A DNA stretch of 42,558 nucleotides from a virus. The notes under the pieces were generated by a model, which was not told where the DNA came from, ran no database searches, and saw only the letters and a program-made list of their open reading frames with translations. Position numbers and translations under genes: made by a program. Positions 12,748-19,367 of the stretch are shown one piece after another. The stretch spans positions 1 to 42,558 of IMG/VR virus record IMGVR_UViG_3300044682_000004; one strand, given 5' to 3'. How positions within the stretch are numbered: the stretch's first letter is position 1; each line of letters opens with the position of its first letter.

Positions 12748-13603
12748 AGTACCTGCACTCTCCTTCGCACCTAGGGAAGGGCTTCCCCTCCCGCACACAG
12801 TATGCTATCTGCCCGGCTATGTCAAGCATGGGCTGCACGCGCTCTTCGCTGTACTTGATGGTGAATTCCTTGGCCATCTGATTGGCCTTGAACTCGTACA
12901 CGTAGGTCATGGTGTCGAACGGAAGCCCCATCCGCCTGGCTAGCCAGAGGTAGATGTCGCCCTGCTTCAGGTGGGACTTGAGCGGGCGCGTAATGCTCTT
13001 GAACAGCCCGTTAAGGTCGGTGAGCTGGCCCTGCTGGTGCTGCTTCAGCAGCTCAGGTGCGTCGATGCGGATGGTGCCCAGGCCGACGCTCTTGAACTCC
13101 AGCAGGGTACTGTTCATAGCCCCGTCAGCATGCCCGGCGATCATGTACTCGTCATCGTGCAGCGGGATCTCATCATATTCCCACCAGTGAACGAACCCGG
13201 AACCGCAGCTAGACGTTTCCGCCATGTTCGGGTGCGTCACTCCGGAGATGACTTCGTTGCACAAACGACAGCGCCAGTCACCCCAGAGCATATCAGCGCC
13301 CCGTAACCAGCCCTGCCACTTGTTGTGGATCTGGTTGCCCTCTGCGAAGATGCTGGTCCTTACGAAATCGAAGGGCTCTAACTCAGGAAGTCTCGTTCCC
13401 GTAATGCGATCAAAAGTGGATCGCGGACACCAATCTGGCTTGGCCATTTCCGAAGGGTGGATGATGTCAGTGCGGCGCGCTGCGTCTGGTGCATATGCAC
13501 GGAGAAGGTAGTCCTTGACGACCGGAATAACAATTCCAGGCTGTGCTTTGTTCCTAAGGTGCTGCCCGAGCGGTCCATCGACCTTAACCGTCGTCTTCCT
13601 CAT
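12704..13603 (-). CDS. Cas4/RecB-like PD-(D/E)XK exonuclease, 299 aa
   Basis: The order of motifs matches Cas4-like nucleases: an N-terminal HPSEMAKPDWC block (49-59) with the first cluster cysteine, a GHADGAM stretch (157-163) with the metal-binding Asp, the E-x-K of LLEFKS (167-172), a Gln in QGDIYLW (214-220), and three closing cysteines (C279, C283, C286) that with C59 could hold an Fe-S cluster. Residues 112-133 add a further CRLC...C pair. Phage members process DNA ends for recombination. It lies in a block with RecA, a resolvase-like protein and endonuclease VII, so a recombination role is more likely than CRISPR adaptation. Confidence 0.8.
   Translation of the reverse strand: MRKTTVKVDGPLGQHLRNKAQPGIVIPVVKDYLLRAYAPDAARRTDIIHPSEMAKPDWCPRSTFDRITGTRLPELEPFDFVRTSIFAEGNQIHNKWQGWLRGADMLWGDWRCRLCNEVISGVTHPNMAETSSCGSGFVHWWEYDEIPLHDDEYMIAGHADGAMNSTLLEFKSVGLGTIRIDAPELLKQHQQGQLTDLNGLFKSITRPLKSHLKQGDIYLWLARRMGLPFDTMTYVYEFKANQMAKEFTIKYSEERVQPMLDIAGQIAYCVREGKPFPRCEGECRYCGQEDVSVKRRRAV
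12797..12825 (-). promoter_or_regulatory. Promoter candidate TTGACA-17-TACTGT inside the Cas4-like gene
   Basis: TTGACA (12820-12825) and TACTGT (12797-12802) are 17 bases apart in the leftward direction, about 50 bases before the GTG of the DUF5664 gene. The position inside a coding region makes a chance match possible. Confidence 0.35.
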
Positions 13604-13976
13604 CAGGTGCCTCCAGTTCTTTCATGCTCAGTAGCTTGCGTGCTTCGCCCGGTGGGTACCATTCCCACTCCTGGCGCGGCTCCTTGCTGCCCGAGCGCCA
13701 CGGCCATTTCTTGCGCAGTGCCTTGCGGTCATCTTCGCTCATTCCTCCCCAGACTCCAACGCGTTCATTGTTGACCAGGGCGAAAATAAGGCACTCATTC
13801 CTGATAGCGCAGGCAGTACCGTCAACTGTGCCATTGCAAAAGGCGATGGCCTCTTGATGCTCATCCTCGTTAAACCACGGATCTTCAAGCTCACCGGTCT
13901 CCTTATGTCTCCACACCTGCCCGATGCACTTTGCCCGGCTCCAGTCAGGCGCGTGCGTGCGTAATCTAAGCACCAT
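13584..13976 (-). CDS. WhiB-family Fe-S transcription regulator, 130 aa
   Basis: Four cysteines (17, 47, 56 and 62) and the GVWGGMS turn (74-80) followed by a basic helix (DDRKALRKKWPW) identify the WhiB family, which is limited to actinobacteria and their phages. The family binds a 4Fe-4S cluster and sigma factor region 4, altering host transcription or responding to redox. The central spacing here is C-x8-C-x5-C rather than the C-x2-C-x5-C usual in host proteins; I recall this longer form from phage members. ATG at 13976 overlaps the preceding gene by 11 bases; the longer start at 14015 would overlap it by 50. Confidence 0.88.
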   Translation of the reverse strand: MVLRLRTHAPDWSRAKCIGQVWRHKETGELEDPWFNEDEHQEAIAFCNGTVDGTACAIRNECLIFALVNNERVGVWGGMSEDDRKALRKKWPWRSGSKEPRQEWEWYPPGEARKLLSMKELEAPDEEDDG

Positions 13977-14274
13977 GGCGCAGCTCCAGGTAGTCGTCCT
14001 CCCGGAGGACCACATAACTGGTGCCGGTCGCGAATTCCACTAGAAATACAGGGATTCTGCCCTCGCAGACCGCATTGACATTGAGGTCTATGAGATCTTC
14101 CTCGACCAGCCTGAAGGACTTGTTTTCCGTGTACTTGTGCTCGACAAGCTCATCAGTTGTGCGGAAGTCATTCTTCGCCCGGGGTCCGCTGCCTGAGGCA
14201 GGTGATAGCTTCCCGCCCCAGCGATCGGCCGCATCCTTCTCGGCCTTGTGCGCGTCGCGATGCACCTTATCCAT
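13966..14274 (-). CDS. PD-(D/E)XK resolvase-like protein, 102 aa
   Basis: Small protein with an N-terminal basic helix, a Gly-rich segment, then NDFRTTDELVEHKYTENKSF (35-54) and LIDLNVNAVCEGRIPVFLVEF. Asp36 and the E-x-K at about 45-47 fit the metal-binding core of small archaeal Hjc-like/phage Holliday-junction nucleases, and the 'GR-x-PVF-x-V-F' strand fits the next beta element. It lies directly after RecA with an ATG overlap, consistent with junction processing. I see only this one motif set, so the enzyme class is an inference. Confidence 0.5.
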   Translation of the reverse strand: MDKVHRDAHKAEKDAADRWGGKLSPASGSGPRAKNDFRTTDELVEHKYTENKSFRLVEEDLIDLNVNAVCEGRIPVFLVEFATGTSYVVLREDDYLELRHGA

Positions 14275-16462: not shown

Positions 16463-19282
16463 TCACTTGCAGTCACTCCAGCGGTCGGCAACGGCAAGGT
16501 CAATGGTCAGGGGGACATCGACCAGAGCCTGGATTTCCTTGCCCGTCATCGCTTCCCGGAGGACTTCACTCGCTGCGTCAATCCTACCATCAGGAGCTGT
16601 AGTTACAAGCTCGTCATGGACATTCAGCAGGAGCTGCATATCATCCGCCCGGAGATTGTCGTAGCGCACCATAGCCGTCTTCAGGAGATCGGCCGAAGAG
16701 CCCTGGATAAGGCTGTTGAATACCTGGCGTTCCGCGAAGTGACGCATATCTTCGTCAGACCAGTTGATCTCCGGTACCCGGCGCTTGCGCCCGAGAATAG
16801 TGCGGATATGCGGGTCCTTGACGTTCCTGCGGCATTCCGACAGTACGAAGTCTTTGTACTCATAGATCTCGGGGAATTCCGCCCGGTGCTTGTTGAGCAC
16901 CGCCTTGGCTTCCTGGTTACCGCAGCCGATCATGCTGGCCACCTTGCTGATACCGGCACCGTAGACCACGGCGAAGTTTATGGACTTGCCGAACTTCTGG
17001 CGCTCGTCCTTGGTGATGTCCTCCGGGCGCTTGCCCAGCACCATGGCAGCGGTCATGACGTGCGGGTCGATGCCTTCCCAGAATCCCTCGTAGAGCTTCC
17101 CGCGCCCCAGGTAGTGCGCCAGTACTACTAGCTCGATCTGGCCGTAGTCGGCTACGACGAGCTTGTGGCCCTCATCTGCAATAAAAGCACCTCGGACAAG
17201 CTTTCCAAGCTCGGTATCAGGCCGAGGAATGTTCTGGAGGTTCGGGTCTCGACTGGAGTTATGGTGGACAAACCCATGTGTCACATAGGAGTGGTCTCCT
17301 TCAACTTCGATATCCCATACTCCCATTGTGCCCAGAGAGGCAATTTCTCGAACTTCGACTTCTTTGAGTGAAGCTTGCCATGCGCTGATTTCGTCACCAG
17401 TGCTAGGTTGTCCAGGTCGTTGTTGTATGGGTCCTCGTCTATATGATGCACATCCAGCCATGCCGGAAGTTTTTCCACGCCTAGCGCTTGTGCCATTACA
17501 TGGCGATGCAGCAGAATGTAGTCCTCGCCTACCTTCACCTGGAGATACCCGTGGCCATCCGAAATAGCCCCCTGATAGTTGTGGTGCCGCTTCCCATATT
17601 TGCCCTTCATAGGGTTCCGTTCGGACATCTTCGATCGAGAATATCGAAGTCGCTGCTCGTTTTTCAACGTTTCCGGTGAGAGCTGTTCCTTCAGTATTGC
17701 GTGAATGTTGTGGAATGAAGTCCCCAACATCTCCGCTACCTGGTGAATTGTAGGCTTCTTCGGATTCTCGCAATATAGAGCTATTACTCGCTGAATATTG
17801 CCCGGATCGTTCGTAAATTTCTTGGAAGCCGTCATAGCTGTATACCTTATCTCCAGGACGGAGGTCTCGGACATGCTGCCAGCCTGCAGCAGTGAGAATC
17901 CGGTGACCTCCGGTACATTTAATCTCAGCTCCATTATACAAACTTACCCGGAACATTGTGTCTTCGCCCTTATAAACCTTCCGGAGAATAGGCTGGCGCT
18001 TACCGGTATGGGTTATAGCTGTATCGCCCAGTTGAGGAATATAATCATCAAAACGGAAAGTGCCCCGGGAAGTTGGCAAAAGAGTATCTCCGGAGACGCA
18101 GAAGCGTCCAGTCTTAGTCCCATACTGTACGAAATCAGTATAAACTCGGCCTTCATAGATCCGGCAGTCATGCGTCTCATCTCCGATATACCCGAGCACG
18201 TAGGTGGTGTATATCTTGTAAACATCCTGGTAATCCAGTAAGGCATCAATCACCGGGTTACCCCGGAAAGTTTCCAGAGCCTCGCCGTCAGTGCTCCAGT
18301 CAGTGAATTCCGGCGTGTATTCCCGGCCCTGCTGCTCGGCTGCCTTCTTTTTCTGCTTAGCAGTCTTGGTAAGACGCCAGGGCTTCAGTCCCTGTCCGCC
18401 TTCGGACTTCGGGCCGAACAGCACGTCGCGTTTCTGCGGAGTGGAGTTGAGATTGAAGCGCTTGCCTGCCGCGACATAGATGCCCGTTTCCAGGTCGGAT
18501 ATCTTCGGCTCAAGGTCTAGCTTCATCTGGTGCAGTCGCGGCTCATCTACCCGGATGCCTGTCAGGCGGATGCGTGAGAGAATGCGCAGGATGTCATTCT
18601 CCAGGTCGTAGACCCTCCGCAGTCCTTGCCTGTCGATCTCGGGGAGCAGGCGCATAAGCTCGCAATAGCAATACGTGCTGTCGCAATGAGCGTAATGCGC
18701 GACCGTGTTGTACGGGTACTTCTCAACGCACTTACCGACATTCTCATCGTCGTACGCGAAACCGTATTCGTCCTTGGTCACGTACTTCATGCCGAACCGC
18801 TTGCGGTTCTCATTGACGAGCCAGTTGATGGTAATGGTGCAGGTGACCGGTGCGGGAATGATGCGGTCACCGTAGTACTTGGCCATCGACGCTATGTCGA
18901 ACTGCCCGCCGTGCGCGGCCTTCAGGATCGTCTCAGAGAAGAGCAGAGGTTCTAATGCTCGTAATACCTCGGCGCGGTCAGGCTGCAGCGGCGGCTTCTC
19001 ATATACCGGTTCCCGGTACATACGCGTTCCGTTACCGAACTTACGCGGTACGCGGGTTTCTCCTACGACTTTAGTTCCTACCGGATGCTGAAAGCTGACG
19101 ACAGCATCGCGTTCCTTGGTGCTGAGAGCTATCCACGCCAGATCATTGAGGTGGGGAACCCCCCGGTTGTCTCCCCAGGTTTCAATGTCAAAACCCACCG
19201 CATCCTGCTGTAAAGCATATTCAACGAATTCCTCCACCTGCTCCACAGTCTGCAGGACATTTGATGAGACTACCTGCTGCAT
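16463..19282 (-). CDS. polA: Family A DNA polymerase with 3'-5' exonuclease, interrupted by an intein (939-aa precursor)
   Basis: Residues 20-210 form a DnaQ-like proofreading domain (FDIET near 31-35; HGGQFDI near 124-130; a Y-A-H-C-D late motif). The polymerase domain carries motif A (ADYGQIEL near 711-718, where Ser is usual at the Gly), motif B (KFGKSINFAVVYG) and motif C (NVHDELV near 887-893). No 5'-3' nuclease domain. The conserved TGR-x-SS-x-DPNLQNIP segment is split by a 281-residue intein at codon 395; joining TGRF to SSRDPNLQNIP restores it. I choose the ATG at 19282 with GGAGGAAC upstream; a GTG at 19318 would place codons across a GC hairpin. This is the likely replicative polymerase. 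Confidence 0.93.
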   Translation of the reverse strand: MQQVVSSNVLQTVEQVEEFVEYALQQDAVGFDIETWGDNRGVPHLNDLAWIALSTKERDAVVSFQHPVGTKVVGETRVPRKFGNGTRMYREPVYEKPPLQPDRAEVLRALEPLLFSETILKAAHGGQFDIASMAKYYGDRIIPAPVTCTITINWLVNENRKRFGMKYVTKDEYGFAYDDENVGKCVEKYPYNTVAHYAHCDSTYCYCELMRLLPEIDRQGLRRVYDLENDILRILSRIRLTGIRVDEPRLHQMKLDLEPKISDLETGIYVAAGKRFNLNSTPQKRDVLFGPKSEGGQGLKPWRLTKTAKQKKKAAEQQGREYTPEFTDWSTDGEALETFRGNPVIDALLDYQDVYKIYTTYVLGYIGDETHDCRIYEGRVYTDFVQYGTKTGRFCVSGDTLLPTSRGTFRFDDYIPQLGDTAITHTGKRQPILRKVYKGEDTMFRVSLYNGAEIKCTGGHRILTAAGWQHVRDLRPGDKVYSYDGFQEIYERSGQYSASNSSILRESEEAYNSPGSGDVGDFIPQHSRNTEGTALTGNVEKRAATSIFSIEDVRTEPYEGQIWEAAPQLSGGYFGWPRVSPGEGRRGLHSAASPCNGTSARRGKTSGMAGCASYRRGPIQQRPGQPSTGDEISAWQASLKEVEVREIASLGTMGVWDIEVEGDHSYVTHGFVHHNSSRDPNLQNIPRPDTELGKLVRGAFIADEGHKLVVADYGQIELVVLAHYLGRGKLYEGFWEGIDPHVMTAAMVLGKRPEDITKDERQKFGKSINFAVVYGAGISKVASMIGCGNQEAKAVLNKHRAEFPEIYEYKDFVLSECRRNVKDPHIRTILGRKRRVPEINWSDEDMRHFAERQVFNSLIQGSSADLLKTAMVRYDNLRADDMQLLLNVHDELVTTAPDGRIDAASEVLREAMTGKEIQALVDVPLTIDLAVADRWSDCK
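17258..18100 (-). mobile_element. Intein in DNA polymerase, 281 aa, with out-of-frame HNH gene inside
   Basis: Splicing blocks are clear. Block A starts at Cys1 (CVSGDTLLPT), block B is GGHRILTAAGW followed by DLRPGDKV, block F is WDIEVEGDHSYVTHGF, and block G is VHHN followed by Ser+1 of the polymerase. Cys1, the block B His, the penultimate His, terminal Asn and Ser+1 are all present, so splicing should work. The roughly 150 residues between blocks B and F contain no LAGLIDADG or HNH motif in this frame and look like low-complexity linker rich in Gly, Ser, Arg and Pro. The same DNA in the next reading frame encodes an HNH endonuclease. Insertion is at the nucleotide-binding region of the polymerase, a usual intein site. 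Confidence 0.9.
17281..17835 (-). CDS. HNH homing endonuclease encoded out of frame within the intein, 184 aa
   Basis: The frame is shifted by one base relative to the polymerase/intein. Residues 28-50 look like a helix-turn-helix (IHQVAEMLGTSFHNIHAILKE). Residues 95-155 form an HNH_3-type nuclease: a strand LQVKVGEDYILLHRHVMAQALG, then LDVHHIDEDPYNND (128-140) and LDNLALVTKSAHGKLH. His130/131, Asn139/143 and His152 are candidate catalytic or metal ligands. The ATG at 17835 follows a GGAGATAAGG sequence; the frame is open upstream to 17934 but that part overlaps splicing block B. It ends inside block F. It would cut intein-less polymerase genes and so spread the intein. Confidence 0.85.
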   Translation of the reverse strand: MTASKKFTNDPGNIQRVIALYCENPKKPTIHQVAEMLGTSFHNIHAILKEQLSPETLKNEQRLRYSRSKMSERNPMKGKYGKRHHNYQGAISDGHGYLQVKVGEDYILLHRHVMAQALGVEKLPAWLDVHHIDEDPYNNDLDNLALVTKSAHGKLHSKKSKFEKLPLWAQWEYGISKLKETTPM

Positions 19283-19302
19283 GGGTTCCTCCAGCCCATT
19301 AG

Positions 19303-19367
19303 GCCCGGACCCCGACACGTCCCGCGCACGCTTGCCGTGCTGGATGTCCGCCAGAGGGTCCGGGCCA
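19303..19367 (-). terminator. 11-bp GC-rich inverted repeat between ssb-like gene and polymerase
   Basis: GGCCCGGACCC (19303-19313) and its perfect complement (19357-19367) enclose 43 bases, which contain a smaller hairpin (GCACG...CGTGC). It fills the 92-base gap before the polymerase ATG. There is no U-run. It may be an attenuator, a processing site or a partial terminator that lowers polymerase expression relative to the ssDNA-binding protein. Confidence 0.5.

Follow-up and report, generated by a model that had tools for sequence, protein, structure and literature searches.

A viral DNA polymerase intein with a homing endonuclease that is very probably overprinted rather than fused

The window, that is, the whole analysed stretch of 42,558 nucleotides (IMG/VR virus record IMGVR_UViG_3300044682_000004), contains a DNA polymerase gene interrupted by an intein, which we consider very probably to be a mobile intein whose homing endonuclease is overprinted on it in another reading frame rather than fused to it. 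This reading is based on the two open reading frames, the catalytic residues, the constraint acting on both frames, the start codon of the nuclease gene, the recurrence of the layout, an identity tract shared by two relatives, and the kinship with nucleases of polA introns. Splicing, internal initiation, the exact target site, and cleavage are inferred, since no expression, splicing, or cleavage data exist. The features are as follows:

16463..19318, minus strand: gene of a family A DNA polymerase (951 aa) that contains the intein, with no stop along its length, identified by profile matches
17258..18100, minus strand: class 1-type intein of 281 aa, with the boundaries C1 ... HHN/S
Blocks of this intein: A with C1; B TxxH (C-T-G-G-H); F MGVWDIEVEGDHSYV; G GFVHHN; +1 Ser
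17378..17785, minus strand: intein-frame linker, residues 106-241, predicted to be disordered, with low identity in the intein frame
17281..17835, minus strand: gene of the HTH-HNH_3 homing endonuclease, 184 aa followed by a stop codon, in the +1 frame relative to the intein
17836..17857, minus strand: putative ribosome-binding region of the HNH gene, GGAG-ATAAGG-TATACAGCT followed by ATG, a consensus match only
17284..17361, minus strand: doubly constrained DNA, which encodes both the C-terminal tail of the HNH (FEKLPLWAQWEYGISKLKETTPM) and block F of the intein (VEVREIASLGTMGVWDIEVEGDHSY)

The polymerase frame at 16463-19318 matched the Pfam profiles DNA_pol_A (1.4e-82) and Intein_splicing (6.8e-10) as well as the TIGR profiles intein_Nterm and intein_Cterm, and its translation displays the polymerase motifs DYGQIE, KSINFAVVYG, and HDE. 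The intein extends from the Cys at 18100 to the Asn at 17258 and is followed by Ser as the +1 residue. The residues C1, T63, H66, D263, H280, and N281 were invariant in 14 intein homologues, in which the +1 residue was Ser or Cys, so that the motif criteria of a class 1 intein (Cys1, block B TxxH, block F Asp, block G His-Asn, and the +1 residue) were all satisfied. Nothing recognisable was encoded in the polymerase frame between blocks B and F, and the fused in-frame endonuclease required of a canonical bifunctional homing intein was found neither in the window nor in the related loci. In the AlphaFold model of the intein, residues 1-98 and 242-281 form an ordered Hint domain with a pLDDT of about 90, while residues 106-241 have values of about 30-48, all below 50, which agrees with the proposal in the first-pass annotation that the intein frame reads through this region as a linker. 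A fold comparison against the PDB matched the Hint parts of the model to mini-inteins such as Mtu RecA and Ssp DnaB (E 1e-6 to 1e-7, TM by target about 0.8), and PDB inteins were also matched in a profile search with the intein. Judged by this model, a Hint fold is present in the intein; its self-excision by protein splicing is inferred from conservation, without splicing data. Elsewhere in the window, positions 13584-14015 correspond to a WhiB-like regulator, which, together with a polymerase closest to those of Streptomyces phages, suggests an actinobacterial host.

In the frame shifted by one base, the reading frame from 17835 to 17281 matched HNH_3 (5.9e-11) and the HNH endonuclease family PHROG 7545 (2.6e-21). 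Searching the two frames separately, as the first-pass annotation had proposed, therefore assigned the splicing profiles to one frame and the nuclease profiles to the other, and the profile matches together with the boundary mapping bore out its coordinates and motifs for both elements. The HNH gene begins 265 nt into the intein, with its codon position 1 at intein codon position 2. It had also been described as ending inside block F; while the overlap with block F stands, the stop codon falls immediately beyond the core of block F, 23 nt short of the intein end. The residues H130, H131, D133, N139, N143, H152, and H156 were invariant in 15 homologues, and with a catalytic motif and a DNA-binding domain the product satisfies the criterion of an HNH homing endonuclease. 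Its AlphaFold model is mostly confident (mean pLDDT 80) and has a helical N-terminal domain. The top Foldseek match of this model was I-HmuI, which was weak at E = 0.27, with no match below that value, and the HNH profile had no match among PDB sequences. Cutting or nicking of the target is inferred indirectly from this conservation, the kinship to polA-site nucleases, and the identity tract described below, without cleavage data.

The same layout was found in other viral contigs. L001, a virus contig from another metagenome with a polymerase only 46% identical to that of the window, likewise has both the intein and the out-of-frame HNH gene, which spans intein nucleotides 265-820 and has the same length, exactly as in the window. 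Besides the window, at least 15 polA loci share the intein site and the frame relation, with near-identical contigs counted once and L005 and L045 being partial. Besides L001, these loci at the same polA motif are L005, L006/L007/L009, L008, L030, L031, L032, L033, L034, L035/36, L037, L038/39, L040, L041/42, and L045. The alternative phase was identical in all of these loci, and also in L043/44/47, in which an overprinted HNH occupies another polymerase site. An HNH in frame with the intein had been set beforehand as a refuting observation, and no relative at the polA site showed one. As judged from these contigs, the layout is real and widespread and not a sequencing slip. Regarding the searches, scans for close relatives with single proteins gave one real match each, a two-sequence HNH alignment opened the family, and a five-sequence alignment found the remaining loci, while a scan with the intein alignment found only L001. 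The first scan of genome contigs yielded no relative; the second yielded distant HNHs, among which those with a nearby Hint domain were examined, and a plasmid scan gave no match.

Several loci differ in detail. The insertion points lie one codon apart, with the intein (C..N) between TGRF and SSRD in the window and the L033-L039 group and between TGRFS and CNK in L001 and L006. In L030, at about 4787, the polA intein lacks residues 2-35 (GRMS followed by CWMPVVRKLYRG) with the frame and HNH otherwise intact; this could reflect decay, a misassembly, or an unusual, minimal form of the splicing domain. L006 has a second intein in the same polymerase from about 6137, close to the C-terminus of the polymerase domain. 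Microcystis phage Mvi-JY20 carries a nuclease-free mini-intein at the same polymerase motif.

Evidence of mobility came from L006 and L007, which are different viruses with polymerases about 80% identical upstream of the intein. Positions 4231-5721 of L006 are nonetheless 100% identical to L007 over 1.49 kb, a tract that starts about 505 bp ahead of the intein, spans it, and continues for at least 130 bp on the other side, and the L007 version recurs identically in L009 from a second sample. With the caveat that these are metagenome contigs and that L007 ends near the 3′ edge of the tract, this pattern appears to be a co-conversion-like homing signature. Intein-less homologues exist among Streptomyces phage polymerases (42-44% identical), which align in two pieces flanking the intein, and the GiJojo polymerase gene, at 2,037 bp, is too short to contain this intein. 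The closest HNHs among sequenced phages (Pf-WMP3, PS3, PhAPEC7, Dor1, L13.2, Moonfish, and Acinetobacter phages) are 33-44% identical and lie between or within polymerase exons. The flanking exon of PS3 ends in ...TGRLSSSNPNL, which places its intron a few codons 3′ of the intein site between TGR(L/F) and S(S), and I-PfoP3I, the member from Pf-WMP3, nicks intron-less polymerase genes (PMC3428280). Since the relatives are polA-intron HNHs at nearly the same site, these comparisons favor viewing the hidden HNH as a homing nuclease of the polA site that travels with an intein in place of an intron, although the direction of transfer is not shown. In the HNH tree the overprinted copies group together with low support (56/33), and a single origin in polA is not shown.

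It is improbable that both products are made and the HNH serves a purpose outside homing, such as the exclusion of related phages or DNA processing. HNH proteins are known in other phage roles, and intron HNHs can cut the DNA of competitors, but two findings point to homing: the HNH is related to nucleases that home to the polA site, and two divergent viruses share the identical tract. The two roles are not mutually exclusive.

The nuclease gene had been credited with its own start codon, and the comparison upholds this. Although the stop-to-stop room of the HNH frame begins at 17934, the conserved start is the ATG at 17835, and only the window genome has the longer in-frame start (17934). Across the loci, an ATG or GTG start codon occupies the homologous position (L030 being unclear), and an in-frame stop lies 0-6 codons before it in 10 of 14 loci, touching the start in L001 and L008 and lying 2-6 codons upstream in the eight others. 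The putative ribosome-binding match is weak, comprising the four bases AAGG with a spacer of 9; the string ATAAGGTATACA from this region recurs in L001, and Shine-Dalgarno-like strings upstream of the HNH starts are short across the loci. Programmed ribosomal frameshifting near block B would instead give a fusion of the intein N-terminal part with the HNH and no separate nuclease, and the HNH frame of the window, open for 36 codons upstream of the start (19 in L006), leaves room for this as it does for earlier starts. Because the start is conserved and in-frame stops lie just upstream of it, internal initiation is favored, and such a fusion was rejected as very improbable. A separate start codon for the HNH gene is thus supported by the alignments, with internal initiation inferred in the absence of expression data.

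The first-pass annotation had stated that both frames are open and had called for a test of the constraint on each. We kept the HNH protein fixed and shuffled its synonymous codons in 4000 draws, counting the stops in the intein frame. The expected number was 7.2 on average by shuffling and 10.3 with the codon usage of the genome, while the window has no stop in the intein frame and 15 in the third frame, and stop-free draws numbered 0/4000 under either scheme. Thirteen relatives agreed, with P(0) from <0.0003 to 0.02. Between the window and L001, the mismatch in the C-extein was 0.34/0.30/0.68 at polymerase codon positions 1/2/3, while in the overlap it was 0.24/0.18/0.55 at HNH positions 1/2/3, which corresponds to 0.55/0.24/0.18 in polymerase positions. 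The phase of the substitutions switched between flank and overlap in all ten pairs tested, and the HNH was better conserved than the intein frame in each of ten pairs, with 72% identity for the HNH and 37% for the intein frame over the same DNA in the case of L001. The nucleotide identity with L001 reached 92% over the 78 nt of the HNH tail and block F, compared with 46-79% in the other 39-nt intein blocks, because both frames need block F. The stop test, the phase switch, and the identities together indicate that the HNH dictates the linker sequence, that the intein frame is held open, and that block F is doubly constrained. On this substitution evidence, both frames are under selection, as overprinting predicts.

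The HNH could alternatively be an inactive relic whose frame persists merely because the intein is encoded on the same DNA. Activity data that could contradict this are absent, yet the reading is hardly tenable and was rejected, since the substitutions are concentrated at HNH third positions, the HNH outdoes the intein frame in every pair, and the catalytic residues are invariant. Still less credible is a self-splicing group I intron with an open reading frame in place of an intein. Its support is that the nearest relatives of the HNH sit in polA group I introns (PMC3428280), whereas three observations led to its rejection: the in-frame conservation of all class 1 splicing residues, the predicted Hint fold, and a polymerase frame that stays open. 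Rfam found no family in the window or ten loci, which is weak evidence, as it is insensitive to phage group I introns and also missed the known Pf-WMP3 intron. The chance that sequencing or assembly errors shifted a truly in-frame HNH by two indels is next to nil, for while in-frame HNH inteins do exist (L058, L088, L129, and the polA intein of L141), the pair of flanking frameshift errors that would have overturned the first-pass annotation is excluded by the identical offsets in independent contigs, and the shared phase of the polA loci, the switch in substitution phase, and the presence of the layout in annotated phage genomes also stand against it.

For the preferred reading, a mobile intein with an overprinted nuclease, the following course may be envisaged. 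The polymerase mRNA would be translated straight through both polymerase and intein, and the Hint halves, joined by the long disordered linker, would fold and excise the intein to leave an active polymerase. The same mRNA could be entered at the internal start just after block B, yielding a separate HTH-HNH nuclease from the +1 frame. This nuclease would recognise the conserved polA motif-A region (TGR[LFA]SS..PNLQN) in intein-less genes and nick or cut it, and repair from the occupied allele would then copy the intein, the hidden nuclease, and some flank.

Comparable layouts were found in other genes. Terminase (TerL) inteins carry an HNH in the polA-type phase in L078/79 and L098, with other HNH types, and in the other alternative phase in L089, L121, L142 (Rhodobacteraceae phage LS06-2018-MD07), L145 (Tetrasphaera phage TJE1), and L146 (Acinetobacter phage Highwayman). 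In two of the TerL cases, stop-freeness alone was not significant (P 0.11 and 0.29), and these rest on the recurrence of the layout. The DnaE intein of L055/56 has another HNH type in the polA-type phase, with the HNH preceding the conserved Hint strands. In Xanthomonas phage FoX3 (L143, MT161383.1, 2569-3366), a LAGLIDADG_2 nuclease (1e-21) lies in an alternate frame inside a helicase intein, and the record labels the locus only "putative DNA helicase". In total, four annotated phage genomes have the overprinted layout, and their records name only terminase or helicase, three of them labelling an intein-bearing TerL as a plain terminase. The in-frame HNH inteins of L058, L088, L129, and L141 stand in contrast to these. 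We lean towards regarding overprinted-nuclease inteins as a third design of mobile intein that is general and has evolved repeatedly, with a nuclease neither fused nor outside the intein gene. This design would extend to both HNH and LAGLIDADG nucleases, to host genes of four or more kinds (PolA, TerL, DnaE, and helicase), and to both alternative frames, and would be largely unannotated in phages.

The nearest precedent found is the ShiLan domain, in which an insertion in a mycobacteriophage DNA methylase is free of stops, encodes an HNH out of frame, and has no splicing motifs (Arsenault, Gosselin, & Gogarten, 2025; PMC11855218). Both systems have an HNH out of frame in an insertion that is open in the host frame, and both have a mobile distribution. 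However, the ShiLan insertion, being without such motifs, is believed to remain part of the methylase, whereas the nuclease of the window lies in an intein with all splicing residues, and the layout occurs in polymerase and other essential genes. The window accordingly satisfies the criterion of an out-of-frame HNH in a stop-free insertion, but not that of an insertion without a splicing domain, as its Hint domain is intact; this complete splicing domain offers a plausible way to spare an essential polymerase. As side observations, L057, L075, and L093 have C5-methylase reading frames with an out-of-frame HNH and no Hint match and are ShiLan-like elements, and one further case is possibly ShiLan-like in TerL. 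The ShiLan authors noted that overlapping frames are frequent in actinobacteriophages, citing Gorbalenya 1998 and the Gosselin et al. 2025 preprint (PMC11855218). Our literature search for an overprinted intein nuclease found only ShiLan and a genome note. Gorbalenya 1998, on non-canonical inteins, and the preprint, on actinobacteriophage inteins, may already describe examples. The first-pass annotation did not know of the layout as a described class, which needs qualifying in view of the closely related ShiLan layout without a splicing domain; overprinting within a complete intein may be new, with priority remaining open.

I-PfoP3I and the polA group I intron HNHs (PMC3428280; PHROG 7545) share the homologous HTH-HNH_3 nuclease, the gene, and nearly the site, but have their own reading frame in an RNA-splicing intron without overlapping a protein-splicing domain. 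Canonical bifunctional inteins with an in-frame LAGLIDADG or HNH likewise join a splicing domain to a homing endonuclease and sit at a conserved codon within a replication gene, whereas the nuclease of the window is a separate protein in another frame and its intein-frame linker is no nuclease. Split inteins with a freestanding homing gene between their halves are known as fractured genes. They also pair a splicing domain with a separately translated nuclease, but in the window the host gene and intein form one continuous frame through the nuclease gene. In Pectobacterium phage Amona (L139, 2075-5185), the helicase is encoded in two reading frames with a LAGLIDADG gene overlapping both ends, which looks like a split intein with an overlapping homing gene and a possible intermediate layout.

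Inteins are taught as one polypeptide with two activities. Here, the two activities would be separate proteins from one DNA segment, so that the nuclease could be made without splicing and the intein could host a nuclease without folding around it. This would give a homing gene akin to the polA intron nucleases a route into an intein without a fusion step, and it would be a remarkable example from nature of a single sequence in which two unrelated folds are intertwined. It would also explain "linker-only" inteins that are labelled as mini-inteins, plain terminases, or helicases, and it implies that homing nucleases of phages are overlooked when only a single frame is annotated at each locus.
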